A stretch of DNA of 10,979 nucleotides, taken from the NCBI GenBank assembly GCA_934646965.1, contig CAKUEZ010000066.1, positions 1-10,979 of the forward strand. Reading direction: 5' to 3'. This document shows positions 1 through 10,979 of the stretch, piece by piece. The DNA comes from an uncultured Collinsella sp. (GTDB lineage: Bacteria > Actinomycetota > Coriobacteriia > Coriobacteriales > Coriobacteriaceae). The notes under the pieces are model-generated. The model saw only the letters and a list, made by a program, of their open reading frames with translations. It ran no database searches and was not told where the DNA came from. Position 1 is the first letter of the stretch; every line of letters starts with the position of its first letter. The position numbers and the translations under genes were made by a program.

Positions 1-219
1 CATCCCAAATCGATGGTGCTCGCGAGCTCGGTGGAGCCCATGGCATTTAACGTCGGCATTTCGTTTGGCACCGCGGTAGGCGGCGCGGTAGTGAGTGGCA
101 TTGGCATTGCCTACGTGGGCGCAGTTGGTGCCGCGTTCTCGCTCGTAGCCTGGGTGCTCACGCTGGTGACAATCAAACTGGCACGCCGGGAGCGCAAGCG
201 GGCAAGGAAGCAAGCATAG
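1..219 (+). CDS. MFS transporter, C-terminal end (partial)
   Basis: The reading frame is open from base 1 and ends with TAG at 217-219, so this is the last 72 residues of a gene that begins outside the window. The fragment has two hydrophobic stretches rich in Gly, Ala and Val (about residues 18-42 and 46-62), followed by a very basic tail (RRERKRARKQ). The pattern of 'SSVEPMAFNVGISFGTAVGG' followed by two final helices is typical of the last two transmembrane helices of AraJ/arabinose-efflux-type major facilitator permeases, which export small molecules using the proton gradient. Substrate cannot be told from this piece. The gene probably preceded the LMW-PTP gene in the uninterrupted host chromosome, with 46 bp between them. 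Family assignment is by pattern recognition only. Confidence 0.75.
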   Translation, partial: HPKSMVLASSVEPMAFNVGISFGTAVGGAVVSGIGIAYVGAVGAAFSLVAWVLTLVTIKLARRERKRARKQA

Positions 220-265: not shown

Positions 266-304
266 ATGCAACGCATTCTTTTTATCTGCCACGGCAATAT
301 TTGA
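266..304 (+). pseudogene. Displaced native 5' end of the LMW-PTP gene (12 codons)
   Basis: ATG at 266 is preceded by a plausible RBS (CAGGAAAC, 252-259) and reads MQRILFICHGNI before TGA at 302-304. This aligns with the start of the intact phosphatase at 9516, MHRIMFVCHGNICRS. The coding match stops exactly where the conserved P-loop continues with Cys-Arg-Ser. The simplest reading is that this is the original host start of the phosphatase gene, cut off when the mobile element integrated within the P-loop codons. TGA arises at the junction: host ATATTTG or ATATCTG followed by element sequence. If transcribed it would give only a 12-residue peptide, followed at once by a terminator hairpin. 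Confidence 0.85.
287..303 (+). other. attL core
   Basis: The sequence TGCCACGGCAATATTTG matches 9537-9553, TGCCACGGGAATATCTG, at 15 of 17 positions. The longest identical run is TGCCACGG (8 bp), a normal overlap length for tyrosine recombinases, so strand exchange probably falls in 287-294. In the gene frame the core reads Cys-His-Gly-Asn-Ile, the start of the phosphatase P-loop. Flanking codons differ on the two sides, as expected when one flank is host and the other is element. Confidence 0.8.
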
Positions 305-306
305 CA

Positions 307-352
307 AGAGGGGTAAACCGCCTCGTAAACGAGCGGCTCGCCCCTCTCTTTT
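307..352 (+). terminator. Rho-independent terminator just inside attL
   Basis: AGAGGGG (307-313) pairs with CCCCTCT (341-347). Inside it, CTCG (322-325) pairs with CGAG (330-333) around a TAAA loop, and CCG/CGG pair next to it. The hairpin is followed by CTTTT. Orientation is rightward, so it would stop transcripts entering from the host MFS and phosphatase promoter three bases after the truncated phosphatase frame ends. It probably insulates the element from host transcription. In the excised circle it would lie just after the element's own phosphatase start codons. Confidence 0.75.
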
Positions 353-362
353 AGCTGCCATG

Positions 363-383
363 CAACTTTTTTACAACTTTTTG
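363..383 (+). other. Putative integrase arm-binding sites, left end
   Basis: Two CAACTTTTT motifs lie 11 bp apart (starting at 363 and 374), the second inside TTTACAACTTTTTG (370-383). The same word, TTTACAACTTTT, occurs near the right end at 9388-9399. Shared short words about 70 bp inside attL and about 150 bp inside attR fit arm-type sites bound by the N-terminal domain of Tn916/lambda-type integrases. This is inferred from position and repetition only. Confidence 0.5.
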
Positions 384-400
384 AGCACAAGAACCCGCCT

Positions 401-736
401 TTAGCTGCGCCTCTTCGCCATGGCGTCCCTCAGCGCCCGAAGCACCTCGATGGCCACGGGCAGCTCATCAGCCTCAAATGAATCGAGAATCTCCTGTACC
501 TCGGACGAGAGCGCCGACTTATCAGGCTTCGGCCCATCGGACAACAGCGCATCCGCGCCGACCGAGAGCTCGTCGGCGATCTTCGACAGCACGGGCAGGC
601 TCAGCTTCGTGTTTCCGGTCTCGATATGGCTCATATGCGTGACGGAGATGCCGACCTTTCCCGCCAGCGCTTCTTGCGACATACCGCAAGCCTTGCGGTA
701 CCGCCGTATGCGTTGGCCAATCTCGAAGTACTTCAT
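401..736 (-). CDS. XRE-family transcriptional regulator
   Basis: From the ATG at 736 this is 111 residues. A Cro/C1-type helix-turn-helix fills about residues 7-62 (IGQRIRRYRKACGMSQEALA, then VGISVTHMSHIETGNTKLS), with the typical 'SQEALA' second helix and 'ISxxxxSxIETG' recognition helix. The remaining 45 residues are predicted helical and probably dimerise the protein. In-frame starts exist at 751 (ATG) and 760 (TTG). I prefer 736 because the residue order MKYFEIGQRIRRYR matches the family and because a palindromic operator covers the upstream codons; its RBS is weak. It is transcribed divergently from the envelope operon at 952. By analogy it should repress its own promoter and that operon. 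No toxin partner or peptidase domain is adjacent. Confidence 0.85.
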   Translation of the reverse strand: MKYFEIGQRIRRYRKACGMSQEALAGKVGISVTHMSHIETGNTKLSLPVLSKIADELSVGADALLSDGPKPDKSALSSEVQEILDSFEADELPVAIEVLRALRDAMAKRRS

Positions 737-746
737 GCAAACACCG

Positions 747-780
747 CCCATACGAATCAACGTGGCTTGAATCGTATGGG
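747..780. promoter_or_regulatory. 34-bp palindromic operator upstream of the XRE gene
   Basis: CCCATACGAATCAA (747-760), six bases (761-766), then TTGAATCGTATGGG (767-780). The arms are reverse complements at 13 of 14 positions, with CCCATACGA/TCGTATGGG perfect. It begins 10 bp upstream of the ATG at 736 and lies just before a TATAAT at 795-800 that faces the envelope operon. Position and symmetry fit the binding site of the dimeric regulator encoded next to it, allowing simultaneous control of both directions. Binding is inferred, not shown. Confidence 0.65.
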
Positions 781-794
781 CATTTCTCTATCAA

Positions 795-800
795 TATAAT
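795..800 (+). promoter_or_regulatory. Candidate -10 box for the envelope operon
   Basis: A perfect TATAAT occurs on the + strand in the A/T-rich stretch between the divergent genes. With a 16-18 bp spacer the -35 region would fall in the right arm of the palindrome (around 771-778), and no good -35 hexamer is seen there; TTGAAT at 767-772 would need a 22-bp spacer. A weak -35 covered by an operator suits a repressed promoter. The leader to the start codon would be about 145 bases. It contains a small hairpin (ACTGC/GCAGT, 819-832) and repeated GCAGTTT words (828, 845). Confidence 0.35.
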
Positions 801-951
801 AAACTGTGTAGGCGATTTACTGCTTATGCAGTTTAATATGAAGCAGTTTTCAGCATGGCTGCGATGAGCACGATAAAGCTAATCCGCAAAAGGGAAGCGC
901 GACCCATCGGCTCCTCGGAGCTCAAAACTCATAAAGAAAGGGGAAGGGATA

Positions 952-2169
952 ATGGAAACATCGATACGAAAAAGGGGGCTGGTGGCCCTCGCAGGCGCAC
1001 TCGCCCTGTGTGCGGCGCTTCTTTTTGGCGGCGGTGTCCACACCGCATATGCCGAGGAGACCGCGGGTGACGGCTGGACGCTCGACGGCGGGGTGCTCAC
1101 GTTGACGAAAGACGTCGCCACGGCAAACACCTACGACTGGACGCAGTACGCCTCGCAGATCACAGAGGTCAAGGTTGCCGAGGGCGTCACGGAAATCCCC
1201 GGCACCGCGTTCGCCTCGTACGGTAGCGTCCAGTACAGCAACCTGCATAAGGTGACGCTGTCCTCCACGGTGAAGACCATCAGGGTCTCCGCATTCGCGG
1301 ACAACCCTAGCCTCACCGAGGTCCATCTGAACGATGGGCTGGAGCACGTGTGGAACTGCGCGTTCCAGAATGCGGGATTCACCGAGATCAAGCTGCCCGC
1401 AAACGTCGACTGGCATTCCGATGTCTTCGTCTACTGCAAGAAGCTCACCTCGGTGACCATTCCCTCCGGTTCCACATGGGGCGGCGGCGGCAACGCGCAG
1501 TTCTACGGCTGCACCAGCCTTGAGAACGTGCATGTCGAGGAGGGCGTGACCGAGATCCCCGACCAGTTCCTCAACCAATGCGACAGCCTCAAGAATGTCT
1601 GGATCCCCAAATCCGTCACGGCCATCCATTCGACGCCCATTCTCAACTGCCGCATCATCGGCTACAAGGGGACCGAGGCGGAGCGCTATGCGAAGTGGCG
1701 TCAGGAGGTCGGCGTGAACACTGTTGAGTTCCATGCCATCGACGGCGACGCGCACGAAGGTACTTGGAAGGTCACGACCCCCGCGACCTGCACCGCGCCC
1801 GGGCAGGAGCAGCTGACATGCGATATCTGCGGGGCCGTCCAGACGCGCGAGATCGCGGCGACCGGCCACACATGGGACAAGGGCACCGTGACTACCGAGC
1901 CCACCGCGACGAAGGAGGGCGTGCGCACCTACACCTGCACCAAGTGCGGCGCGACCAAGACCGAGGCCATCGCGGCCCTCGGAACGTCGACGGAGCAGAA
2001 GAAGAAACAGGCCAGCGGCTCGAATGATTCGGCCGCGAAGCCCGCGGCGAAGGGCGGCGAGCTGCCCAAGACGGGCGACGACGCGCCCGTATTCCTCGTG
2101 CCCCTCGCGCTGTCCCTGCTCTGTATCTCAGCCGGCGTCATCGCGAAGCACCCGGGTATCACGCGATGA
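952..2169 (+). CDS. LPKTG-anchored leucine-rich-repeat surface protein
   Basis: This 405-residue protein has a signal peptide (basic residues 6-8, hydrophobic 9-28, likely cleavage after AYA at 32-34). About residues 65-262 form BspA/LRR_5-type leucine-rich repeats, recognisable by recurring 'L.xVtIPxSVTxI' units such as LTSVTI and VWIPKSVTAI. Two short repeats with a CxxCG knuckle follow (C290/C293 and C329/C332), separated by ATGHTW. A Lys/Ala/Ser linker leads to the sorting signal LPKTG (371-375), a hydrophobic stretch and a short tail KHPGITR. It should be covalently attached to the wall by a host sortase; none is encoded here. LRR_5 proteins of this sort often bind host or bacterial surfaces, but the ligand is unknown. 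ATG 952 has a purine-rich RBS (AAAGGGG, 937-943). It heads the five-gene operon. Confidence 0.85.
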   Translation: METSIRKRGLVALAGALALCAALLFGGGVHTAYAEETAGDGWTLDGGVLTLTKDVATANTYDWTQYASQITEVKVAEGVTEIPGTAFASYGSVQYSNLHKVTLSSTVKTIRVSAFADNPSLTEVHLNDGLEHVWNCAFQNAGFTEIKLPANVDWHSDVFVYCKKLTSVTIPSGSTWGGGGNAQFYGCTSLENVHVEEGVTEIPDQFLNQCDSLKNVWIPKSVTAIHSTPILNCRIIGYKGTEAERYAKWRQEVGVNTVEFHAIDGDAHEGTWKVTTPATCTAPGQEQLTCDICGAVQTREIAATGHTWDKGTVTTEPTATKEGVRTYTCTKCGATKTEAIAALGTSTEQKKKQASGSNDSAAKPAAKGGELPKTGDDAPVFLVPLALSLLCISAGVIAKHPGITR

Positions 2170-2220
2170 GCCCGCAAGGGTCGCATTGAGTATCACGGGG
2201 AGAAGGAAACGGGGAACGAA

Positions 2221-3252
2221 ATGACCGAACAATCAGGCAAGAAGAAGCGAACGGTCCTCTGGATCGCGATAGGCGTCGTGACGGCGGTCGCGCTCTGCTG
2301 CGGCGGCGCGTATCTTTACCTCTCGGCACAGGCGTCCAAGACCTACGGCGTCCCGCTCGTCGTGAACGCCGAGGGGCTCGACACAGACAAGGGAACGAAG
2401 ATCCCCGTCCGCGCCACGGGAAAGGATTCCGCGGGCAACGACGTGGACACCGTGTTCTATGCGGGGTCGGGTTCCTCCATCAAGCTTAGGCCGGGGGATT
2501 ACCGCCTTGCAATCGAGGCATCGCCCATCGCGCAGGACGGGACCATATACACCACCAAGGGCGCGACCACAAAGGTGAGCATCACCAAGGACGGCAAAAC
2601 CAGCGTCAAGAAGGAGGTCACCATCGAGCCCATTCCGGCCGAATCGGTGACGGACGAGCAGATCGATGCGGCGTACAAAGCGGCGAAGGACAGCGGCATA
2701 AGCTCCTCCAAGCTCGACAAGCTCAAGGAGAAGGCACAGAAGCGTCGGGACGATGCCGTGGCGGCCAAGAAGGCCGAGGAAGAAAAGAAGGACGCCGAGG
2801 CGAGCGCAGCCGAAAATAGCCAGACCTCGAGCGACCAGACGTCCAGCGGTGGCCATTCGTTCACGACCGACTACTTCTACGTGGACGTGCCGTCCGATTG
2901 GAAGCAGAACGAGTGGAGCGTGACCCAGCTAGACGACCACACGTGGCAAATTTCGCACAAACCGGCCAACGACTACGGCGGCGCAATCTGCATCGCCGTT
3001 GCGAAAGATAACCCGTGGCCGGTATACGGCACGCAGGAACTCGGCGCGACCGGCACCGGACTGAACGTATATGTCGGCAACGGGGCGGGAGACGGCCTGG
3101 AGAAGTATCTGACGATCGGGCTCACCAAGTCATGGGACCCGAACGATCCCAACTCCGTCCGCGGCGACGGCATGACGAACTCCCAATTCCAGGATCAGCT
3201 CAACGCGAGAGAGTGGCTCAAGGCACAGCAGGAAAGCCAACAACAACAATAA
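2221..3252 (+). CDS. Membrane-anchored extracellular protein, unknown function
   Basis: This 343-residue protein has a basic N-terminus (KKKR, 7-10) and one hydrophobic helix (about 11-34) with no clear cleavage site, so it is probably a type II membrane protein facing outward. About residues 43-160 form a beta-rich domain (LRPGDY at 89-94, SP at 101-102) ending in IPAESVTDEQ; a related domain occurs in the protein at 5131. Next come a highly charged helical stretch rich in K, E and A (165-198), a Ser/Thr linker, and a second domain (about 212-318) beginning FTTDYFYVDVPSDW. It ends in a Gln-rich tail. I recall FYVDVP-type domains in other coriobacterial envelope proteins but cannot name a family. 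It starts 51 bp after the LPKTG gene with RBS-like AAGGAAA/GGGGAA. No enzymatic motif is visible. Confidence 0.75.
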   Translation: MTEQSGKKKRTVLWIAIGVVTAVALCCGGAYLYLSAQASKTYGVPLVVNAEGLDTDKGTKIPVRATGKDSAGNDVDTVFYAGSGSSIKLRPGDYRLAIEASPIAQDGTIYTTKGATTKVSITKDGKTSVKKEVTIEPIPAESVTDEQIDAAYKAAKDSGISSSKLDKLKEKAQKRRDDAVAAKKAEEEKKDAEASAAENSQTSSDQTSSGGHSFTTDYFYVDVPSDWKQNEWSVTQLDDHTWQISHKPANDYGGAICIAVAKDNPWPVYGTQELGATGTGLNVYVGNGAGDGLEKYLTIGLTKSWDPNDPNSVRGDGMTNSQFQDQLNAREWLKAQQESQQQQ

Positions 3253-3260
3253 GTTGCATA

Positions 3261-3315
3261 GGGGCAAGCCGAACGGCTCCGGAATCTTTACCGGGGCAGT
3301 CGTTCGACTTGCCCC
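3261..3315. other. Long intercistronic hairpin within the envelope operon
   Basis: GGGGCAAG (3261-3268) pairs with CTTGCCCC (3308-3315). After one C/A mismatch, CGAAC (3270-3274) pairs with GTTCG (3302-3306). An inner stem pairs CTCCGG (3277-3282) with CCGGGG (3291-3296). No run of T follows in either direction, so it is not a standard intrinsic terminator. It occupies much of the 144-bp gap before the lipoprotein gene and could protect the upstream mRNA or tune downstream expression. Confidence 0.6.
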
Positions 3316-3396
3316 CTTCCCATCAAAGCCGACGGGAAAGCATCGAGCAACAAGCTAAATCGACAAAGCAAGCGAACGCAAAAGGAGAAAACAACC

Positions 3397-4209
3397 ATGA
3401 AGCAGTACACGAGGAGAGAGGCGCTCAAGCTATTCGGTATCGGGACGGTTGCCGTCGCGGGCCTTGGGCTGACCGGCTGCAACGGCTTAGGCGAAGGCAC
3501 GGGCGGCGGCGCTCAGAAGTCGAGCGAGCCCATGCCGGCGTCTCGGGCATTCGCTCAAGCGAGTGTTTGGCTGGAGTACAACAGCCCGGAGGACGGAATC
3601 GGAAAGGATGTATCGATATATAGATTCCTCTTCTTTGACGGGAAGGGCAACGTCACCACCTACTTACCCGCAGACGCCAGGTTCCGCGACCTGAAGGGGC
3701 TTTCCGGCGAGGAGATCGTCAAGTTTGCCACGAAGCAGGACAAAGCTAGGTTCGAAGCCGAAAAGAAACATGCCATCGAGAACGCGAACGAGGATGTCGA
3801 GAATTATCAAAATCTGGATTCCTCGTTCGCCGAAACCTTAGAACTTGCCAAGCAGGTCCTCGCGTTTGAGGAAGCTGCTCAATATTCGAAGCCCAAAGCA
3901 CACCCCTACACGCTTGAGCTTGAAACCGATGAGTCGGGCAATTCGACGGCAAGCGAGAAGCTCCGCTTCAAAGCGAGGAGCTTCGTATGCAGCGACATCA
4001 CCGCATACAACGTCATGAAAAACAATGTCGAGATCCCCAAGAGCGCCATCGAAACCTACGACGACGATATCGAACTCGGTTCTGCGACCACCGCGACCGT
4101 CTACAACACCACTTTCGCGGGATATGCGGGCTTGGTGACCGTGGTGAATGAGGGATTTTCGGGCTTCACGTGGGACACCCCCGATACCGAAGGGATAGAG
4201 GTGGACTAG
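3397..4209 (+). CDS. Tat-type lipoprotein, unknown function
   Basis: This 270-residue protein starts MKQYTRREALKLF, a twin-arginine signal (TRREALK, R6-R7), followed by a hydrophobic stretch and a lipobox LTGC with the lipidated Cys at position 28. It should be exported, perhaps already folded, and anchored on the outer face of the membrane. The mature part is acidic and mixed alpha/beta, with a helical charged section (about 105-165) and no recognisable catalytic motif or cofactor site. No family is recognised. Start choice is secure: AAAGGAG (3381-3387) lies 9 bases before the ATG. It is gene three of the operon, with the Tat signal setting it apart from its Sec-type neighbours. Possible roles include a ligand-binding or accessory component of the surface complex; this is inference from context. 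Confidence 0.75.
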   Translation: MKQYTRREALKLFGIGTVAVAGLGLTGCNGLGEGTGGGAQKSSEPMPASRAFAQASVWLEYNSPEDGIGKDVSIYRFLFFDGKGNVTTYLPADARFRDLKGLSGEEIVKFATKQDKARFEAEKKHAIENANEDVENYQNLDSSFAETLELAKQVLAFEEAAQYSKPKAHPYTLELETDESGNSTASEKLRFKARSFVCSDITAYNVMKNNVEIPKSAIETYDDDIELGSATTATVYNTTFAGYAGLVTVVNEGFSGFTWDTPDTEGIEVD

Positions 4210-4221
4210 GCAATCGATACG

Positions 4222-4260
4222 CACGGATATAGCCCGATTGCAGCTCGGGCTATATCCGTG
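4222..4260. other. Perfect 16-bp hairpin immediately upstream of an RBS
   Basis: CACGGATATAGCCCGA (4222-4237) and TCGGGCTATATCCGTG (4245-4260) are exact reverse complements with a 7-base loop. There is no following T-tract; the sequence runs AAATAGAAAGGAG into the ATG at 4279. The stem ends only about 6 bases before the Shine-Dalgarno AAAGGAG. It is probably an RNA element affecting stability or initiation of the next gene, or a protein-binding palindrome. Confidence 0.7.
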
Positions 4261-4278
4261 AAATAGAAAGGAGCGAAC

Positions 4279-5067
4279 ATGGAGGAACAGGCAAGTCTGT
4301 TGCCAGGCGTTGCCACGGCGCACGATTTGATGCATAGGGTGGTTGACCTTCAGCAACGCATCAACCAGCTCACCACTCAGTTTGCCACCAAGACGGAAAA
4401 GAAGACTAAAAGGCACCCCGTCCTCTACGCAATCGGGGGCTTCCTTATCGCGTTCACGCTTATCACGAGCACGCCACTTAAGGTGATAACGTTTCTCCCC
4501 ACCCTTCCGCTCTTCTCGATGGGAGGCTCGGAGCTTCAATTGGCGGTCTGGAATATCGTGAACCTCATCGTCTCAGCTATCATCGGTGCGATTCTATACA
4601 AGGTCATAGCGAAGACGGCGGACAAAAGCCGCTCCCAGAAAAATGCCGCGATTGACCAAAGCAACCAACAAGTTGAAGCCAACAACCAGGCCCTGGCCCA
4701 GAGCATCGAGCAAACCAAGCAGGAGATTTTCGCCGTACAGCAGCAATGGGCTTCGCAGGTCGCCCCGTGGTACCCCATGGATTACGACAGCATCGAAGCC
4801 GTGGATTTCTTCCTTGCTGCCGTGCGCAACCATCGCGCCACCACCGTACAGGAGATGGTCAACCTCTACGAGACCGAGATGCACCAGCGCCGCATGGAAG
4901 CGGGCCAGCAGCAGATTCTCAACCAGCAGCGCATCGGCAACATGCTGCAAATAGGCAACCTGTTCATGCAGGGGCAGATTCTCAATCAGGCTCAGCAGAT
5001 TAACGCGAACACCGCCAGCGCGAGCGGCAACCTCGACTGGATGGCTCGCGCGATGGGAAAGCGCTAA
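4279..5067 (+). CDS. Two-helix membrane protein with coiled coil, unknown function
   Basis: This 262-residue protein has a helical N-terminus (15-40), two hydrophobic segments (about 48-64, possibly extending to 80, and 86-111), and then a long Gln/Lys-rich stretch likely to form a coiled coil (about 115-158). The C-terminal part contains a conserved-looking block WYPMDYDSIEAVDFFLAAV followed by a helix with NLYETEMHQRRME (about 164-206). I have the impression of similar blocks in uncharacterised proteins of other Gram-positive bacteria, with no name. Both termini are probably cytoplasmic, which makes it the only operon product with a large inner-side domain. It might link the outer proteins to the cytoplasm. 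RBS AAAGGAG (4267-4273) fits ATG 4279. There is no signal peptide and no catalytic motif. Confidence 0.75.
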   Translation: MEEQASLLPGVATAHDLMHRVVDLQQRINQLTTQFATKTEKKTKRHPVLYAIGGFLIAFTLITSTPLKVITFLPTLPLFSMGGSELQLAVWNIVNLIVSAIIGAILYKVIAKTADKSRSQKNAAIDQSNQQVEANNQALAQSIEQTKQEIFAVQQQWASQVAPWYPMDYDSIEAVDFFLAAVRNHRATTVQEMVNLYETEMHQRRMEAGQQQILNQQRIGNMLQIGNLFMQGQILNQAQQINANTASASGNLDWMARAMGKR

Positions 5068-5130
5068 GTAATGACGCGGTTGACATAACGAGGTAACTCG
5101 AAACCACCATGAAAGAAAGGGGGATGGATA

Positions 5131-6270
5131 ATGAACGGATTATCCCAGTGGGCGCGCTCGCATAAGCCCCATGTCGCAGCGATAGCCGTTGCGATCGTTG
5201 TTGCGATCGTTGTTGCGATAGCCGTGGCAAGTGGAGCGTTCGCAACGTCCGAGCAACAACCAGAGCAGCAGGAGTCAAGAACTGTCGATGTGACCCTCAA
5301 CGTCACGGCCGACAACGGTTGGGACGAGAACTCCACGCCCGCCATCGCCCATATCGAGAGCAACGACGTGGACTTCTACCACGCGGTGACCCCCGATGCC
5401 GATGGCAACAAGGGCACTTCCACGGTCGAACTCGCCGAGGGCGACTACACCGTGAGCTTCGTCAGCCCCGTCAACTCCGACGGTTCCGCATTCGACATCT
5501 ACGACACGGGCGCTCCCGTCGACATCACCGTCGACGCCGACGCGAAGACCGCACCTGCCATCAACTGCCCTATGGCGCAGATTCCCGCTGACAAGGTCAC
5601 CGACGATATGCTCGCGGACATCGTCAACAAGACCAAGGACGCCATCAAGAACGGCGACGTGACCTTGAAGGGCGATGCGGGCACTGGCATCCTCGACAAG
5701 CTCGACGGTAACGTGAGCGCCAACCCGAACGTCTCCGACGAGACGAAGGAGAACGCATCCAAGGCCGAGGAGGGTGTCGATATCGACGGCAAGCCCGCCG
5801 ACAAGCCTTCCGGCGGAAACGCCAACGCTTCCGGCTCCAACACCGGAAACTCCAACTCTGGAAACGCCGGCGGTTCCCACAAGCCGAGCACGCCTGCCCA
5901 CCAGCATTCGTGGACACAGCACACCGCACAGAGGTGGGTATCCAACATGGTGACGGTCCCCGACTACGAGACGCAGACAGTCTACGGAGCGCGTTTCTAT
6001 GTCCCAACCGGCACTCCCGGCCAATACATCGCAAAAGGACCGGAGTACTGGTTCGAGAACGGATTCACGCGGGACGACCTCAATGCCATCATCGTCAACG
6101 CCCTGCGTAACGCCGACGAGAACGGCCTGTACAACGGCGTGGATTACTCCAGCTACCAGAACATCAAAAAGACCGTGCAGGTTCAGGTCGGTTCCCATCA
6201 GGAAGACCACGGTTACTACGAGGACTACGTGGACTACGTGTATTGCAGTTCGTGCGGTGCTCGTCAGTAA
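5131..6270 (+). CDS. Membrane-anchored protein with His/CxxC C-terminal domain
   Basis: This 379-residue protein begins with a short basic segment and a low-complexity hydrophobic helix (about 15-38, Val-Ala-Ile repeats). Residues 51-170 are a beta-rich domain related to that of the protein at 2221: LAEGDY (101-106), SP (112-113), then IPADKVTDDM. A Ser/Gly/Asn-rich linker (about 225-255) follows. The C-terminal domain opens with HQHSW (257-261) and ends with YCSSCGARQ, so an HxH...CxxC metal site, probably zinc, is plausible. Similar His/Cys-bracketed domains occur in surface proteins of gut Firmicutes and Coriobacteriia, to my recollection. No LPxTG follows. It is the last gene of the operon. 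The RBS region (GAAAGAAAGGGGG, 5111-5123) resembles that of the gene at 952. Confidence 0.8.
   Translation: MNGLSQWARSHKPHVAAIAVAIVVAIVVAIAVASGAFATSEQQPEQQESRTVDVTLNVTADNGWDENSTPAIAHIESNDVDFYHAVTPDADGNKGTSTVELAEGDYTVSFVSPVNSDGSAFDIYDTGAPVDITVDADAKTAPAINCPMAQIPADKVTDDMLADIVNKTKDAIKNGDVTLKGDAGTGILDKLDGNVSANPNVSDETKENASKAEEGVDIDGKPADKPSGGNANASGSNTGNSNSGNAGGSHKPSTPAHQHSWTQHTAQRWVSNMVTVPDYETQTVYGARFYVPTGTPGQYIAKGPEYWFENGFTRDDLNAIIVNALRNADENGLYNGVDYSSYQNIKKTVQVQVGSHQEDHGYYEDYVDYVYCSSCGARQ
5188..5223 (+). repeat. 12-bp tandem repeat inside a membrane-helix coding region
   Basis: GTTGCGATCGTT occurs twice head to tail (5188-5199, 5200-5211), with a third diverged copy GTTGCGATAGCC (5212-5223). Each unit adds four residues (V-A-I-V) to the transmembrane helix, so slippage would change helix length without breaking the frame. 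Confidence 0.8.
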
Positions 6271-6360
6271 CGACGAAACCATAACGGCACGTCCTGTGTT
6301 CGGGCATAGCCCTCACAGACCCGCGCGCTCCCTCCGGTCGCGTGCAGGTGTCCGTTTCCC

Positions 6361-6404
6361 AAACAAGGGGAGCATCCGTATAACGGGTGCTCTCCTTTGT
6401 TTTT
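6361..6404 (+). terminator. Intrinsic terminator of the envelope operon
   Basis: ACAAGGGGAGCATCCGT (6363-6379) pairs with ACGGGTGCTCTCCTTTGT (6383-6400), with G-T pairs and one bulge, around a 3-base loop. TTTTT (6400-6404) follows. It lies 90 bp beyond the stop of the last operon gene and is the first stem with a T-tract after 952, which supports one transcript for 952-6270. The rest of 6271-6558 holds a small GGGC/GCCC hairpin (6303-6313) and a GACGCC/GGCGTC hairpin (6510-6524), with no gene. Confidence 0.8.
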
Positions 6405-6558
6405 GCCCAGATGCTCCGGAATACCGCGAAACAGGATCAGCGACGGCGCACCGACCTTTGAAGGGCTTTTCGAGATCTTTCGGCGGGCTTTGGATGGGCA
6501 TGCGTGAAAGACGCCTGCGGCGTCGGGTGCCTCTGAAACGAAGATAAGGAGGTACACG

Positions 6559-6912
6559 ATGGACAAGGAGCGTCTTGAACCCAACAGCCCCCAGGAGGAG
6601 GCCATGTGGAGGGCGCAGGTGCTCAGGCGCACCGCCCGCATCTGCTCGGCGAAGGCCAAGGAGCTTGAGCGCATGGCGAAGGTGGACGGGAACGCCCCCA
6701 TGCGCGACAGCAGCACCCTGAAGGACGTGCTCAAGCGCATCGACAACGTGATGGAGTGGCGGTTCGTGAACGCTCTGGGCGAGGTCGTACTCGACGGGGA
6801 CATCCTCGCGGAGAGCATCGACTGCGAGGCCCTGCGCACCATGCGCTACTGCGTGGCGGAATACCTCAAGCGAATCGAGGAGCGGGAAGCGGAGGGGAAG
6901 GGCGATGAGTGA
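6559..6912 (+). CDS. Hypothetical protein, first gene of a two-gene unit
   Basis: A 117-residue, highly charged, mostly helical protein without signal peptide or membrane segment, so cytoplasmic. An N-terminal helix (about 11-42, EEAMWRAQVLRRTARICSAK) is followed by a second region (52-110) with LKDVLKRIDNVMEWRFV and an acidic C-terminus. I recognise no family. The start is well supported by AAGGAGG (6546-6552), 6 bases before the ATG. Its last 8 bases overlap the start of the next gene, so the two are translationally coupled. They share the terminator at 7199. They are separated from the envelope operon by a terminator and so probably have their own promoter, which I could not locate with confidence. 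Confidence 0.75.
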   Translation: MDKERLEPNSPQEEAMWRAQVLRRTARICSAKAKELERMAKVDGNAPMRDSSTLKDVLKRIDNVMEWRFVNALGEVVLDGDILAESIDCEALRTMRYCVAEYLKRIEEREAEGKGDE

Positions 6913-7186
6913 CTACGGCATCAAGACCTACGCCGACCTCGCCGAGACGTGCGGCGGGATGGTGCTCGCAAACGAGATGGCAAAACGCCCGCTTGAGCTT
7001 GTGAGCGGGGACTGGGCGCCGTGGGAGGAGATTTTCCAGTGGTACATCATACAGGACCCGTCGTTTGTCATGGATCACACGGGCGAGCCGGTGTTCTACG
7101 ACGAGGAGCTTGACCTGTACGTCCTTGGGGTAAATCATCTAGGCACAGCTTGGCAGCTCGTGCCCGCTCCGACAATCTACGATTGA
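6905..7186 (+). CDS. Hypothetical protein, second gene of a two-gene unit
   Basis: A 93-residue acidic protein, soluble by sequence. Notable features are ADLAETCGGMVLANEMAK near the start and an aromatic middle (WEEIFQWYIIQD), followed by FYDEELDLYVLGVNHLGTAW. The D-Y-V-x-G-V-x-H-x-G-T-x-W pattern looks conserved-domain-like. I have a weak memory of similar small proteins on clostridial and coriobacterial mobile elements, without a known role. The start ATG overlaps the previous stop (ATGAGTGA at 6905-6912) and is preceded by GAGGGGAAGGG. No catalytic motif is recognised. A function in element maintenance or host defence is possible but unsupported. Confidence 0.75.
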   Translation: MSDYGIKTYADLAETCGGMVLANEMAKRPLELVSGDWAPWEEIFQWYIIQDPSFVMDHTGEPVFYDEELDLYVLGVNHLGTAWQLVPAPTIYD

Positions 7187-7198
7187 AAAGACGCCGAA

Positions 7199-7236
7199 GG
7201 GCGCAGCGAAAACAATCGCTGCGCCCTTTATTTTTT
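7199..7236 (+). terminator. Strong intrinsic terminator after the two-gene unit
   Basis: GGGCGCAGCG (7199-7208) and CGCTGCGCCC (7217-7226) form a perfect 10-bp stem with an 8-base loop, followed by TTTATTTTTT. It lies 12 bp after the stop at 7186 and ends the transcript of 6559-7186. Confidence 0.92.
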
Positions 7237-7256
7237 GCTCCGCGCGCACTCAAGAC

Positions 7257-7403
7257 GCGCTTTCTACACGTCGTCACTTTATGCCTGAACTTGTAGAAAA
7301 ACTCCGAGAAGATCGCCCCGTTTATGGGGCTTTCCGAAGCGCTTTCTACAACTGTCGCAATCTTCGACAGATCCAACCCCTAAAACATGCCTTGTTTTCT
7401 ACA
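7257..7403. repeat. Clustered TTTCTACA motifs
   Basis: TTTCTACA occurs at 7261-7268, 7343-7350 and 7396-7403, and inverted (TGTAGAAA) at 7292-7299. The first and third share the longer word GCGCTTTCTACA (7257-7268 and 7339-7350), 82 bp apart. The stretch lacks a credible gene. Such a cluster could be protein-binding sites for an origin, a relaxosome, or excision control; which one is unknown. Confidence 0.6.
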
Positions 7404-7488
7404 GCGTTTCACGCCATATATCAGGAGAAATCGCCTTGGCTCCCTCCGCTATACGCTTCGGGGGCAAAAAAGGCAAAAGGGCATAAGG

Positions 7489-7612
7489 GGGACTGACGCA
7501 GCGTGCGCTGCGGTCGGCATAGCCGACAGTCCCATGCCCAACGCCCGCGTACTTCATACAAATAAACCCACGAGCATCGAGCGAAGCGAGATGCGCACGG
7601 GCGAAGGGCATG
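7489..7612. other. Compact structured region (three-way junction plus long hairpin)
   Basis: GGGACT (7489-7494) pairs with AGTCCC (7528-7533), enclosing two hairpins: CGCAGC/GCTGCG (7497-7502 with 7507-7512) and GTCGGC/GCCGAC (7513-7518 with 7522-7527). Directly after, CATGCCC (7533-7539) pairs with GGGCATG (7606-7612) and GCCCG (7543-7547) with CGGGC (7598-7602), enclosing GCATC/GATGC (7574-7578 with 7590-7594). This much pairing in 124 bp without a reading frame suggests a structured RNA or a single-strand-active DNA site such as an origin of transfer. No T-tract follows. Confidence 0.6.
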
Positions 7613-7760
7613 CGTATGGAGACCCCGTGAATCTCGAAATATAGCACTGACTTTTTTCTCCTCATTTATGAACGGATGCAAGCAAAAATACTGATTTATC
7701 AGGGTTTTTTCGATTTGCTGATGCGCAACGGTGCGGGTACTCTCGGGTCGAATTGAAATT

Positions 7761-7776
7761 GCGTTGCAAGCAACGC
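7761..7776. promoter_or_regulatory. Palindrome upstream of the excisionase-like gene
   Basis: GCGTTGC-AA-GCAACGC is a perfect 16-bp palindrome ending 9 bp before the AAAGGAGG Shine-Dalgarno of the gene at 7797. ATTGAAA words flank it (7752-7758 and 7779-7785). It may be an operator for that gene or a short leader hairpin. Confidence 0.45.
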
Positions 7777-7796
7777 CGATTGAAAAGGAGGCTCGA

Positions 7797-8039
7797 ATGA
7801 GCAAGGAGACAAGTGTTCAGGATGCGTCTAAGAACCCTGTGTACAGCATGCTCGAAAATGCCATGTTGGTCGTTGACGAAGAGGAGGCAAAGAAGTTTCT
7901 TGGGGCAACCAGGCTTTTGCAGTTGATGGTAGACAGCGGTGATGGCATCGGGCCTGCGCATCTTCGTCACTGCTATGACTCATCTCACCGCTATTACTTT
8001 GTAAGCGATCTGCTTTATTGGAACAAGAATCGTCCCTAG
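7797..8039 (+). CDS. Excisionase-like winged-helix protein
   Basis: From ATG 7797, preceded by AAAGGAGG (7784-7791), this is 80 residues. About residues 27-78 fit the small MerR-like excisionase fold (HTH_17 type): an EEEAKKFLG helix, a second helix ATRLLQLMVDSG, a turn, and a wing ending HRYYFVSDLLYW, which resembles the usual 'YRFxxsDLxxWl'. Such proteins bend DNA at attachment sites and direct the integrase toward excision. Some relatives are only transcription factors. The location, 107 bp before the integrase gene and in the same orientation, supports the excisionase reading. An upstream in-frame ATG at 7731 lacks an RBS and adds unrelated residues, so it was not used. Confidence 0.65.
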   Translation: MSKETSVQDASKNPVYSMLENAMLVVDEEEAKKFLGATRLLQLMVDSGDGIGPAHLRHCYDSSHRYYFVSDLLYWNKNRP

Positions 8040-8086
8040 GAATCTCGAAAGTCATTCAACGTAGCCCGTACCACTAGCAATCATAC

Positions 8087-8118
8087 GCCCCGATGCACCA
8101 GCGAAGCAGCATCGGGGC
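8087..8118. other. Perfect hairpin before the integrase RBS
   Basis: GCCCCGATGC (8087-8096) and GCATCGGGGC (8109-8118) form a 10-bp stem with a 12-base loop. No T-tract follows. The integrase Shine-Dalgarno (AAGGAGAGGAGG, 8127-8138) starts 8 bases later. It may limit read-through or translation of the integrase, or be a protein-binding site. Confidence 0.65.
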
Positions 8119-8146
8119 ACATCCATAAGGAGAGGAGGTGACAAGA

Positions 8147-9343
8147 GTGCCCACGAGGAAAGACAGCAAGGGGCGCATTCTTCGCCAAGGAGAGGGGCAG
8201 CGCCCGAACGGCCAGTACTATTTCAAGTTCAAAGACGTGAAAGGCAAGACGAAGTACAAGTACTCGTGGACGCTTACCACGCACGACCTCCCTCCCAAGG
8301 GCAAAAAGTCGGGGCCGTGCCTCCGCGAAATCGAGAAGCAGGTGCAACGCGATCTGTTTGACCGCGTTGCACCAAGCGGGATGACCGTTCTCGAATTGGT
8401 TGAAAAGTACGTCGCGACCAAGACGGCGGTGCGCCCGACTACGCGCGCGGGCTATAAGACGGTTATGAACTTTCTCGCCAAGGACGAGTTCGGAAGCAGG
8501 AAGATCGGCGATGTAACGACGCTCGACGCGAAGAATTGGCTCATCTATCTTCAAGGCGAGCTCGGGAAAAGCTACAGCGCGATTCACTGCATTCGAGGAG
8601 TGCTTCGCCCAGCTTTCCAGCTTGCGGAGGAAGACGACCTCATCAGGCGCAACCCGTTTAACTTCGAGCTCGCCACCGTACTCGTCAACGACTCCATTGC
8701 GCGCGAGGCCTTGTCCCCACGGGACGAGCGCAGGTTCCTCGATTTCATCAAGGGAGATAAGCATTACTCGCGATACTACGAAGCGTTCTACATCCTCTTC
8801 AACACGGGGCTGCGCATCTCGGAGTTCTGCGGTCTCACAAAATCTGACCTCGACTTCGAAAACGGAAGCATCCGCGTCAACAAGCAGCTGCAGAGGGGCA
8901 GCGATATGAGGTACTACATCGAGCGCCCCAAAACGAAAAGCGGCGAGCGATACGTGCCCATGTCCGAGGAAGTCAAAGAATGCTTCAAGGCAATCCTTCA
9001 AAAGCGTGCCAACCAACCCGTCGAGCCCGTCGTTGACGGGGTAAGCGGATTCCTGCTTCTGGACAAAAACGGCATGCCGAAGGTTGCGATGCACTGGGAG
9101 AAGTACTTCCAGCTCTCCCTCCGCAAGCACAATAGCATTTACAACAAGGGGCTTCCCAAGATTACCCCGCATGTCTGCCGACACACGTTCTGCTCCAAGA
9201 TGGCTCGCAAGGGGATGGATCCCGCGAAGCTCAAGTACATCATGGGGCACTCGGACATTAGCGTGACATACAACACGTACACCCACCTTGGATTCGAGGA
9301 CGTGAGGGGCGACATGCTCCGCATGACGGATGGTGCCGCGTAA
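8147..9343 (+). CDS. int: Tyrosine recombinase/integrase, Tn916 type
   Basis: From GTG 8147 this is 398 residues, close to the 405 of Tn916 Int. The N-terminal arm-binding domain (about 1-70) starts PTRKDSKGRILRQGEGQR and contains YYFKFKD and KYSWTL, closely like Tn916 Int. A SAM-like core-binding domain spans about 77-180. The catalytic domain has Arg223 (TGLRISEF), Lys262 or Lys264 (PKTKSGER), His342 and Arg345 (HVCRH), His368 (MGHSD) and the likely nucleophile Tyr378 (YNTYTH). All five classes of active-site residue are present, so it should be active. GTG 8147 sits 8 bases after GAGGAGG; an in-frame GTG at 8138 directly abuts that SD and is less likely. It lies 172 bp from the phosphatase start and catalyses integration and excision at the LMW-PTP core. 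Confidence 0.92.
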   Translation: MPTRKDSKGRILRQGEGQRPNGQYYFKFKDVKGKTKYKYSWTLTTHDLPPKGKKSGPCLREIEKQVQRDLFDRVAPSGMTVLELVEKYVATKTAVRPTTRAGYKTVMNFLAKDEFGSRKIGDVTTLDAKNWLIYLQGELGKSYSAIHCIRGVLRPAFQLAEEDDLIRRNPFNFELATVLVNDSIAREALSPRDERRFLDFIKGDKHYSRYYEAFYILFNTGLRISEFCGLTKSDLDFENGSIRVNKQLQRGSDMRYYIERPKTKSGERYVPMSEEVKECFKAILQKRANQPVEPVVDGVSGFLLLDKNGMPKVAMHWEKYFQLSLRKHNSIYNKGLPKITPHVCRHTFCSKMARKGMDPAKLKYIMGHSDISVTYNTYTHLGFEDVRGDMLRMTDGAA

Positions 9344-9356
9344 GCTAAAGTGTACG

Positions 9357-9400
9357 AAGTTGTAAATCCGCGAGGTTTACAACCGAATTTACAACTTTTG
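9357..9400. other. Putative integrase arm-binding sites, right end
   Basis: AAGTTGTAAA (9357-9366) is the inverse of TTTACAACTT. It is followed by TTTACAAC (9376-9383) and TTTACAACTTTTG (9388-9400). The first two form an 8-bp inverted repeat, GTTGTAAA/TTTACAAC. The word TTTACAACTTTT recurs at the left end (370-381). The site lies 14 bp after the integrase stop. Role is inferred from sharing and position. Confidence 0.55.
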
Positions 9401-9515
9401 CGGCGGAAAATATCCGCTCATACACGAGTCGATTCGGGATTCCGCGACTGGGCGATGACATACGAACAGCATTTATCACCTGCGGAAATCCTGATATACG
9501 AGAGGAAGTCCGAGG

Positions 9516-9962
9516 ATGCACAGAATCATGTTCGTATGCCACGGGAATATCTGTCGCTCGACGATGGCTGAGTCGGTGTTTGCCGAGCTGGTGCGCCGTG
9601 CCGGGCGCGAGGCGGAGTTCGTTATTGATTCCGCCGCGACCTCAACCGAGGAAATCGGCAACCCGCCGCATCATGGCACGGTTGCCAAGCTGCACGAGGT
9701 CGGGATTCCCGTGGCTGAGCACCGCGCGCGCCAGGTGCGTCGTGCGGAGTATGGCGACTGGGACCACATCGTCTATATGGATGCCGAGAACGCCCGTGGC
9801 CTGCGTCGCATCTTCGGCGACGATCCCGACGGCAAGATTTCGCGCCTGCTTGATTGGACCAACCGCCCCGGCGACGTGGCCGACCCGTGGTACACCGGCA
9901 ACTTTGACGCCACGTACCGCGATGTGCTCGCCGGCTGCACGGCTATGCTCGAGCAGCTGTAG
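9516..9962 (+). CDS. Low-molecular-weight protein tyrosine phosphatase, 5' end rebuilt by the element
   Basis: This is a 148-residue LMW-PTP of usual length. The P-loop is VCHGNICRST with nucleophile Cys8 and Arg14 (CX5R). The general acid is Asp123 in DPWYTG, followed by the aromatic Trp125-Tyr126. These enzymes hydrolyse phosphotyrosine, often on kinases or capsule-assembly proteins, and act in the cytoplasm. The first seven codons (MHRIMFV) and the RBS (AGAGGAAG, 9501-9508) are element DNA; from about codon 9-10 onward the sequence is host. The displaced native start, MQRILFI, is at 266. Residues before the P-loop remain hydrophobic beta-strand, so the protein should fold and work. The promoter is not evident. 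There is no terminator after the integrase gene, so read-through is possible. Confidence 0.93.
   Translation: MHRIMFVCHGNICRSTMAESVFAELVRRAGREAEFVIDSAATSTEEIGNPPHHGTVAKLHEVGIPVAEHRARQVRRAEYGDWDHIVYMDAENARGLRRIFGDDPDGKISRLLDWTNRPGDVADPWYTGNFDATYRDVLAGCTAMLEQL
9537..9553 (+). other. attR core
   Basis: TGCCACGGGAATATCTG encodes Cys-His-Gly-Asn-Ile plus the first bases of Cys13, inside the phosphatase P-loop. It matches attL at 287-303 except for positions 9 and 15. Downstream codons (CGC TCG ACG ATG) continue the host gene; upstream codons, including AGA for Arg3, are element sequence. Confidence 0.8.
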
Positions 9963-10008
9963 ACGTTCGGGCGGCGCGGGCGCACGAGCCACACCATCGG
10001 CATAAAAC

Positions 10009-10130
10009 GAGCGTGGATTTTCTCCCGCATACAAATTGAGCGTGGATTTTCTCCCACTTTGAGCGTTCAAGTGCGCTCTAAACGGGAGAAAATCCACGCT
10101 CATTATCTCGGTGGGAAATAATCCACGCTC
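10009..10130. repeat. Four-copy 18-bp inverted repeat cluster between convergent genes
   Basis: GAGCGTGGATTTTCTCCC occurs exactly at 10009-10026 and 10038-10055. Its reverse complement occurs exactly at 10084-10101 and with two changes at 10113-10130. Between copies two and three, GAGCG (10061-10065) and CGCTC (10074-10078) add an inner stem. Copies two and three can form one long hairpin, copies one and four a second around it. The cluster lies between the phosphatase stop (9962) and the convergent gene's stop (10133), where a bidirectional terminator is expected. The extent and regularity suggest a REP-like dispersed element rather than a simple terminator. Confidence 0.85.
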
Positions 10131-10132
10131 GA

Positions 10133-10462
10133 TTACTCGTCGACGATCTCGGCGAGCCAGACGTTCAGCGTATCGACCTCGGGGCAGCAGAACTTTGCCG
10201 TGCCGGGCTCGTTGCCGGGCACGGTTCCGCCATAGCGCAGGATATCGATATAGGGAAAGCCCACGTGGCAGGCCATGGCACACATCTTGCCGCGGTCGCG
10301 GTCGAAGTCAAAGACGTCGCCCGGCTTGTGCCCGTGGTGACAACGGCATGTACCCAGCTGATCCACGCAACTAATGCGAATACGCGGACGCTTGCCGCGC
10401 GGCGCACCGAGCGGCTTGTTCTCGCCCGCGGGCTCGGGGCCGCTCTCGCCAGCGCTACTCAT
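10133..10462 (-). CDS. TIGR04076-like small cysteine-rich protein
   Basis: This 109-residue protein has a polar N-terminal extension (1-24) and then a domain beginning RIRISCVDQLGTCRCHHGHK, with PGDVFDF, MCAMACHVGFPYIDILRYGG and a C-terminal FCCPEVDTLNVWLAEI. The order, with Cys-rich start, 'G..F.' middle, 'C..A...i.p.i..lr.G' and a late 'CCP', matches my memory of the TIGR04076 family. Its biochemical role is unknown; six or more Cys/His suggest metal or cluster binding. The start ATG (10460-10462) overlaps the stop of the upstream kinase gene by 8 bases (ATGAGTAG), so the two are translated as a coupled pair. It is host sequence, not element. Confidence 0.7.
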   Translation of the reverse strand: MSSAGESGPEPAGENKPLGAPRGKRPRIRISCVDQLGTCRCHHGHKPGDVFDFDRDRGKMCAMACHVGFPYIDILRYGGTVPGNEPGTAKFCCPEVDTLNVWLAEIVDE

Positions 10463-10979
10463 GGTCGATCACATCCAGGCAGGCCTCGATGGGCAAGCCG
10501 GCGGACTTGTCCTCCTGGTCGGCGTTGCGCTCGATAAGCTCTGCCACCACGCGCATGGCGTCGGCCGTTGCGCGCTGCAGGCTCCAGCCAGCCATAACGC
10601 GGCCGACGAGCACCGCCGAGAACGTATCACCGGTGCCCGGGAAGTAGACCGGGATCAGGTCGAAGGGAATCGTGAAGTGCTCCCCCGCCACGTGGTCGTA
10701 ACCGATAACGGCGTTCGTGCCGTCGACCACAGCGCTCGTAATGACCACCGACTTGGCGCCCAGCGCACGCATGGCGTCCACAAGGGCATGCGCCTCGTCG
10801 GGCGTGATTTGCTCGGCAATGGGCGTATCGGTGAGCAGGCAGGCCTCGGTATAGTTAGGAACCGCGTAGTCGGCGCACTCGAGCAGATGCCTCATGAGGC
10901 CGATCGTGGACTCGGGCACACCGGCGTAAAGTTTGCCGTTGTCGCCCATGATGGGGTCGACGAACACCTTGGTGCCCTT
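10455..10979 (-). CDS. Pyridoxamine/pyridoxal kinase, C-terminal part (partial)
   Basis: The frame is open to the right edge, so the N-terminus is missing; 174 residues are visible. Motifs are those of PfkB/ribokinase-superfamily vitamin B6 kinases: VFVDPIMGDNGKLY near the start, PNYTEACLL, then KSVVITSAV, and the anion-hole/catalytic motif PGTGDTFSAVLVG with Asp as base. The enzyme phosphorylates pyridoxal, pyridoxamine or pyridoxine with ATP in B6 salvage. The 'DPIMGD' and 'PNxTEA' pair favours PdxY/PdxK-type over ThiD or sugar kinases; substrate preference is inferred. It ends by overlapping the TIGR04076-like gene, so the pair forms an operon reading leftward. Confidence 0.85.
   Translation of the reverse strand, partial: KGTKVFVDPIMGDNGKLYAGVPESTIGLMRHLLECADYAVPNYTEACLLTDTPIAEQITPDEAHALVDAMRALGAKSVVITSAVVDGTNAVIGYDHVAGEHFTIPFDLIPVYFPGTGDTFSAVLVGRVMAGWSLQRATADAMRVVAELIERNADQEDKSAGLPIEACLDVIDHE

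Follow-up and report, generated by a model that had tools for sequence, protein, structure and literature searches.

Why does a single stretch of Collinsella DNA hold two starts of the same phosphatase gene more than 9 kb apart? The stretch, hereafter the window, is the 10,979-nt contig CAKUEZ010000066.1 of an uncultured Collinsella sp. (assembly GCA_934646965.1); all coordinates refer to it, and features lie on its forward strand unless stated. It consists of the 3' end of a major facilitator superfamily (MFS) transporter gene, a stub with the start of a low-molecular-weight protein tyrosine phosphatase (LMW-PTP) gene, a 9,250-bp block measured from core start to core start, and an open LMW-PTP gene. 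We are highly confident that the block is an integrative element that uses the LMW-PTP P-loop as its chromosomal attachment site (attB) and rebuilds the 5' end of the gene. The MFS gene end (1..219; PF07690 E 1.8e-5, under the curated cut-off) aligns to the gene directly preceding the phosphatase in nine other genomes. The stub (266..304), which would be the left junction (attL), reads MQRILFICHGNI and then a TGA stop. The open gene (9516..9962, 148 aa) starts MHRIMFVCHGNICRS, with host DNA following the core.

The product of the open gene is predicted to be an LMW-PTP: it has a C-x5-R P-loop (CHGNICRS) and the PF01451 domain (E 4.4e-33), and it matches the YfkJ structure 4etm at E 3.3e-31. 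The gene that closes the element block (8138..9343) encodes a tyrosine integrase of the Tn916/Tn1549 type, with PF02920 (E 5.1e-24) and PF00589 (E 6.4e-33). In the PDB it matches Int 6emy (E 2.1e-80) and the N-domain entries 1b69 and 1tn9; we take 6emy to be a Tn1549 protein and the other two Tn916 proteins. The integrase has the R...H-x-x-R...H...Y pattern, with R226, H345, R348, H371 and Y381 invariant across 14 aligned sequences; these are presumably the catalytic residues.

The earlier note had proposed that in related Collinsella genomes the MFS gene would be followed at once by an unbroken gene that reads MQRILFICHGNICRS. We surveyed 43 Collinsella genomes, 25 of which matched the left flank of the window. 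In nine of the 43, the MFS match stops two bases short of a single fused phosphatase, and all nine read MQRVLFIC[HY]GNICRS. Eleven others have about 1.6 kb between the MFS gene and the phosphatase; this is the spacing of the eight natives that read MQRILFIC, two of which contain MQRILFICHGNICRS exactly. The proposal therefore holds in substance, with a fused gene directly after the MFS gene, but not letter for letter. Native starts in the 21 closest genomes divide into MQRV (11), MQRI (8) and MQHV (2). When GTDB genomes were scanned for the phosphatase, the picture was the same: the gene is continuous in C. aerofaciens and Collinsella loci L001-L004, and the MFS flank and the phosphatase are contiguous in L002-L004. 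Codons 1-7 of the natives L116, L123 and L134 are identical to the left copy of the window (21/21 bases) and match the right copy at 12/21, and when the two flanks of the window are joined in silico, the protein is identical to that of L116 at 144 of 149 positions, stop included. Comparison at the sequence level establishes the empty site. Among the 43 genomes we found neither an empty site that lacks the fused gene nor both phosphatase starts without the element, the two outcomes that the earlier note had named as fatal. In one genome (G044) the MFS gene and the phosphatase lie 8.3 kb apart, and the window integrase has no match in the stretch of that gap examined.

To whom does the right-hand 5' end belong? 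Two Coriobacteriia genomes, G764 and G634, hold integrases 97-98% identical to that of the window. In G764 the right end of the element lies in a different phosphatase and compares with the window at 163/175 bases in the arm, 18/21 in the seven codons, 8/8 in the core and 307/412 in the body. In G634 the element lies outside a phosphatase; there the arm matches at 167/175 and the seven codons at 21/21, followed by 10/32 beyond the core, and an opposite-strand open reading frame (ORF; L345 10094-11053) runs into the right end. The right arm of the window (9341..9536, including a ribosome-binding site (RBS), the start codon and the codons MHRIMFV) has no match at E 1e-5 in 30 native Collinsella phosphatase loci. 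Because arm and start recur in G764 and G634 and the arm is missing from the native loci, the MHRIMFV 5' end is, by sequence comparison, element DNA. The RBS, start codon and seven codons are thus brought by the element, as the earlier note had it. The two starts within one window could also be read in another way: the element would carry the phosphatase at 9516 as cargo, and the left stub would be what remains of a separate native gene that has lost its body. We give this very little credence: 9537-10979, the phosphatase body and downstream genes, matches L001 at 92% in one unbroken alignment; 38 of the 43 Collinsella genomes have a phosphatase at E <= 1e-30, each of the 38 has one and none has two; identity to G764 drops at the core, from arm to body; and the G634 element has no phosphatase body.

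The integrative reading is also consistent with the architecture of the arms. A left arm-type repeat, TTTACAACTTTT (370..381), was recognized by 11-mers common to the right arm, where one inverted and two direct repeats of TTTACAAC lie at 9359..9395. In L172 (TTACCCC) and L181 (TTACACC) the repeats are arranged in this way but have different centres. The two ends of one element share more 8-mers than ends taken across elements (mean 6.2 vs 2.6), and two or more TTTACNNC sites occur in 20 of 55 right arms, compared with 1.0% of shuffles. We take these repeats to resemble the DR2 arm sites of Tn916. The same 55 arms, a set with 46 distinct starts that may include near-copies, have MIKILFV-like codons in which second positions are nearly fixed and third positions vary, which fits selection on the encoded protein, even though the sequence is of use only once integrated.

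The earlier note described a shared core of 17 bases beginning at the nucleophilic Cys codon. The position is right; the exact block is shorter. Uninterrupted identity between the left copy (287..294) and the right copy (9537..9544, attR) is 8 bp, TGCCACGG, which covers Cys, His and two bases of Gly and is mismatched on either side, and 15 of 17 bases are common over TGCCACGG.AATAT.TG. The two P-loops of the window are alike partly by expectation, because both encode the same motif, and their likeness alone is therefore no proof. Integration is established because an empty site, an element-borne 5' end and other elements with two ends all exist, which bears out the earlier note's central claim of a mobile element attached in the P-loop codons. 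We compared 23 such elements, a hand-chosen set in which the nearest upstream stub was taken as left end (L022, L041 and L077 have no recognisable integrase between the ends, and L036 and L044 have integrase fragments only). At each of bases 1-10 of TGYCAYGGCA, the end copies match in 18-23 of the 23, and agreement drops to 8/23 at base 11 and 9/23 at base 12; this comparison sets the boundary of the core on the right. Upstream of the core, the likeness of the ends is confounded by coding. Counted at synonymous sites, agreement is 57/69 cells in the core vs 70/138 at third codon positions upstream (Fisher p 4.8e-6), a contrast that codon preference may inflate. In base-shuffled loci (2.69 Mb, one strand), a strict P-loop-start pattern has 0 matches, vs 167 on both strands of the real loci.

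Two variants of the core deserve mention. Beside the CHG type there is a second type of stub, CWG (TGCTGGGG), seen in L198, L229, L230, L157 and L200, the first three of which have it as the left stub among the 23 elements; tryptophan-variant P-loops may also be targets or mimics. In 9 of the 21 close Collinsella genomes (natives L116-L136) the P-loop reads CYGNICRS (TGCTATGG) instead of CHGNICRS, a change to Tyr within the attachment core that keeps the motif and is possibly an escape from insertion.

Is the site a habit of the integrase or an accident of this window? In 397 Lachnospiraceae genomes, searched for integrase matches at E <= 1e-120, we found 69 matches in 65 genomes. Downstream, 53 have an LMW-PTP with a complete P-loop, nine have a P-loop mimic first (a class that shows that the element encodes a mimic, not that it is located in a phosphatase, and that includes L271, where a phosphatase comes 160 bp later), four have neither and three are too short. 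An LMW-PTP start or a mimic thus follows in 62 of the 66 testable cases. The LMW-PTP lies 147-580 bp from the integrase in 49 of the 53 and 1,967-2,484 bp away in the other four, and for 50 of the 53 a tblastn match to the phosphatase was obtained as well. A Coriobacteriia draw gave integrases in 4 of 396 genomes, three in LMW-PTP and one (G634) at another site. In a Clostridia draw, 11 of 391 genomes have the integrase, ten with LMW-PTP and one with a mimic, and five of these 11 repeat the Lachnospiraceae survey. It is these three surveys that give unbiased site counts.

An integrase of the Tn916/Tn1549 kind might instead have inserted here by chance, with low specificity, so that the shared core would be merely a conserved protein motif. 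Tn916 is described as loosely AT-preferring in PMC4701971, and the G634 element does sit at another site. We nevertheless consider chance insertion highly improbable. Low-specificity, AT-rich targeting is not what the 53 of 66 testable relatives with a downstream LMW-PTP display, 49 of them within the narrow distance range; the mimic is kept even outside a phosphatase, in G634; and three more distant integrases lack the signature in 4-7 kb, two plasmid-borne ones (43-44% identity) and that of Collinsella G025 (42%). One of the two plasmid-borne integrases adjoins vanB and is presumably Tn1549-like. The link between this integrase lineage and its site is thus established by comparison of sequences. 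The earlier note expected a target site conserved across strains; the choice of this site is a property of a whole integrase lineage and not of a single case, though not an absolute one, as the G634 element shows.

Beyond the surveys, 47 further IMG/VR loci include 2 with LMW-PTP, 14 with a mimic, 12 too short and 19 with neither within 2 kb; in L286 and L312 the signature lies further downstream than that. The record of the Monoglobales phage CHVD 5762 includes portal, tail and head genes, and at its end, 6.7 kb downstream of the integrase, is an LMW-PTP start; we found no stub at the other end of the record, so that one junction only is seen. In the phage record L322 (PV036456.1, 21254-27890), a methyltransferase and other genes lie between the integrase and a terminal LMW-PTP start, which is annotated just as similar to a hypothetical protein. 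A tree of integrases (111, then 96, of 202, with near-copies and cut-off loci removed and phosphatase-selected loci included, as in the identity bins) has 62 with phosphatase, 17 with mimic and 17 with neither within 1.3 kb, and 14 of the last 17 fall in one clade. This suggested a clade with another target, an idea we dropped as a general account: seven of the 17 show a phosphatase or mimic further downstream, and 10 of 25 loci read further had one 1.8-6.7 kb after the integrase. Fifteen of the 25 are still without the signature (L257, L264, L266, L294, L295, L301, L302, L306, L309, L325, L210, L320, L321, L212 and L213), among which L210, L320 and L321 are outgroups and L212 and L213 are shorter cuts of the L261 and L258 matches. 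Part of this clade may use another site.

G409 and G081 each have two integrases in tandem, with a mimic after the first and the phosphatase after the second. These tandems show that sites can be reused. L233, L224, L081 and L202 have an integrase, a P-loop mimic and then non-phosphatase sequence, to which L233 and L224 add a second integrase and a phosphatase. A metagenome-assembled genome labelled 'Gastranaerophilales' (L071) also has the integrase-phosphatase arrangement; we claim no jump between phyla because the search of its class returned genomes of the Clostridia-class search. An integrase 98% identical to that of the window belongs to a cluster (P0001) of 1178 sequences, and elements of this type may therefore be frequent in public data. 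Two candidates from outside the lineage were discarded. The LMW-PTP annotated near the end of Streptococcus phage Javan141 is preceded by ruvB and looks like an ordinary flank. The 'histidine phosphatase' beside group B Streptococcus prophages, as presented in PMC7698700, is a different gene.

Several observations weigh against P-loop integration as we describe it. The G764 contig ends before the left end of the element, and only the right end is seen. The near-identical element of G634 (L345 3083-10112) sits at another site with a partial core, while the G634 phosphatase, with a perfect core, stays unused, there being no integrase match in its 3.5 kb locus. That native phosphatase itself starts MHRIMFV and resembles the right copy of the window at 18/21 bases. 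Because of this, the MHRIMFV amino acids alone are no marker of the element, and the arm is; the element may once have taken its MHRIMFV codons from a host like G634. The core copies of the window differ at two of 17 bases, so the point of strand exchange in the window is not fixed. Four testable Lachnospiraceae matches have no P-loop in 0.7-3.0 kb downstream, and the mimic class speaks to what an element encodes and not to where it sits. No consensus promoter was found in the right arm of the window. Finally, excision and the attP circle enter our account by inference.

With these reservations, we propose that a Tn916/Tn1549-type integrase recombines the element's attP with attB, the P-loop bases TGCCAYGG(CA) close to where the chromosomal LMW-PTP gene begins. 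The attP would carry a mimic of the first phosphatase codons behind its own ribosome-binding site. Integration would sever the native promoter, start and first seven codons, leaving them as the left stub, and would fuse the element's copy to the host body, resulting in an open phosphatase gene with an altered N-terminus. That the window's own integrase carries out the recombination, that excision gives an attP circle and that expression changes is what we infer from the arrangement. The phosphatase would then be expressed from the element, by read-through from int or from a leader of its own.

Expression should come from the element because transcription that arrives from the MFS side is probably stopped at the left end. 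Just inside that end, a terminator-like hairpin with a U-rich tail (307..347; fold z -3.71) folds better than all 200 shuffles, as does the corresponding hairpin of G634, which has a different sequence (z -8.32); a simple terminator pattern scan did not call the 307..347 hairpin a terminator. The hairpin would cut the phosphatase off from the transcription unit to which it used to belong. Just 5' of the start codon, CTSATATWYGARAGG is conserved in five Coriobacteriia arms; it is likely the RBS and possibly an extended -10. The earlier note spoke of new expression signals; the RBS and the conserved leader support this, the promoter part does not stand in consensus form, and we regard it as plausible that the element brings such signals. 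Would the element also act as a regulatory switch, its integration and excision altering phosphatase output beyond keeping the gene open? All native 5' signals are exchanged, the hairpin and the conserved leader are in place, and a dusA-element promoter gives lower expression (PMC8409611). With no consensus promoter in the right arm, and with an intact enzyme being sufficient reason for the mimic, we think a switch unlikely.

The element has ten ORFs, the integrase gene and cargo genes among them. The block opens with an XRE/Cro-type regulator in opposing orientation (401..760, reverse strand; PF13560/PF01381). It is followed by an LRR_5 (BspA-type) protein (952..2169; PF13306 E 1.3e-24) that is probably surface-bound, judging from a C-terminal LPKTG read in the sequence, and by a cargo protein with an N-terminal hydrophobic segment (2221..3252) and no Pfam or NCBIfam match. 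Next come a putative lipoprotein (3397..4209; no family match), with 68% DNA identity to the G634 element over 3382-3793, a putative membrane protein (4279..5067) with 80% DNA identity in the G634 element and weak family matches below cut-off, and a putative secreted protein (5131..6270) with no confident family match. Two small genes (6559..6912 and 6905..7186) are covered by a 71% match to the G634 element (6616-7277), and the position of an 80-aa ORF before int (7797..8039; no family match) makes it a possible excisionase. Among the ten ORFs we found no conjugation genes (relaxase, coupling protein or VirB4) in Pfam and NCBIfam; the regulator has a MobT match over the HTH part only, far below cut-off (18 bits vs 600). 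Nor did PHROGs give capsid, terminase or tail genes, its matches being integrase, DNA-binding/regulator and unknown-function families only. PADLOC called no defence system and returned regulator matches and one weak LeoBC match (E 5e-4) for 4279-5067. In the intergenic stretch 7250-7420, TTTCTACA-type repeats occur several times and in either orientation; this may be an origin of transfer or replication. Right after the phosphatase, at 10005-10134, is a long inverted repeat of GAGCGTGGATTTTCTCCC units with 61-nt arms, 80% complementary; such a repeat is also found near the phosphatase gene in L001, L003 and L004.

Transfer RNA genes are used as attachment sites because of their conservation and because an insertion can leave them restored. 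Here that logic would extend to an enzyme's active site, its most conserved stretch, in a gene whose 5' end is rebuilt. A still broader view is possible, if on balance doubtful: that the LMW-PTP catalytic codons are a standing, tRNA-like docking site in gut bacteria, common to small islands and phages and stacked in tandem, each element with a kept-up mimic of the first codons, and that integration and excision form a reversible expression switch under element control. The lineage offers naturally occurring integrases that share a single predictable attB across many anaerobes, which is of use where bacteria are difficult to engineer. It also opens a testable question, the control by mobile elements of protein-tyrosine dephosphorylation in their host.

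Replacement of a gene's 5' end has precedents. PMC8409611 describes elements that sit in the 5' end of a protein-coding gene and provide it with a new promoter and an altered N-terminus: SXT/R391 integrative and conjugative elements (ICEs) in prfC, and IMEVchUSA3-type islands in dusA. The position of SXT in the 5' end of prfC is also given in PMC4542580. Like these, the window element is inserted within the 5' end of a conserved gene and restores the frame with an altered N-terminus. It differs in its target, LMW-PTP with the core in the catalytic P-loop, in its Tn916/Tn1549-type integrase and in its hosts, Clostridia and Coriobacteriia; and where those elements bring a new promoter, the leader here is conserved and the right arm has no consensus promoter that we could find. 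Streptococcal ICEs that target the 5' ends of ftsK, rbgA and ebfC share the choice of a gene 5' end, but, as PMC4701971 describes them, they keep the N-terminus unchanged; the word 'phosphatase' is absent from the main text of that paper. As the earlier note suspected, we found no description of an LMW-PTP attachment site in the open-licence literature, a scope that most subscription papers fall outside. With Tn916/Tn1549 integrases the window integrase shares the PF02920 arm-binding domain, PF00589 and repeats at both element ends; unlike Tn916, with the low-specificity AT preference described in PMC4701971, its lineage favours one coding motif. This suggests that strong direction to a site is possible for an integrase type that is known to target loosely. 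While 5'-end replacement is known, the LMW-PTP active site as target and a widespread, site-preferring lineage of this integrase type appear to be new.

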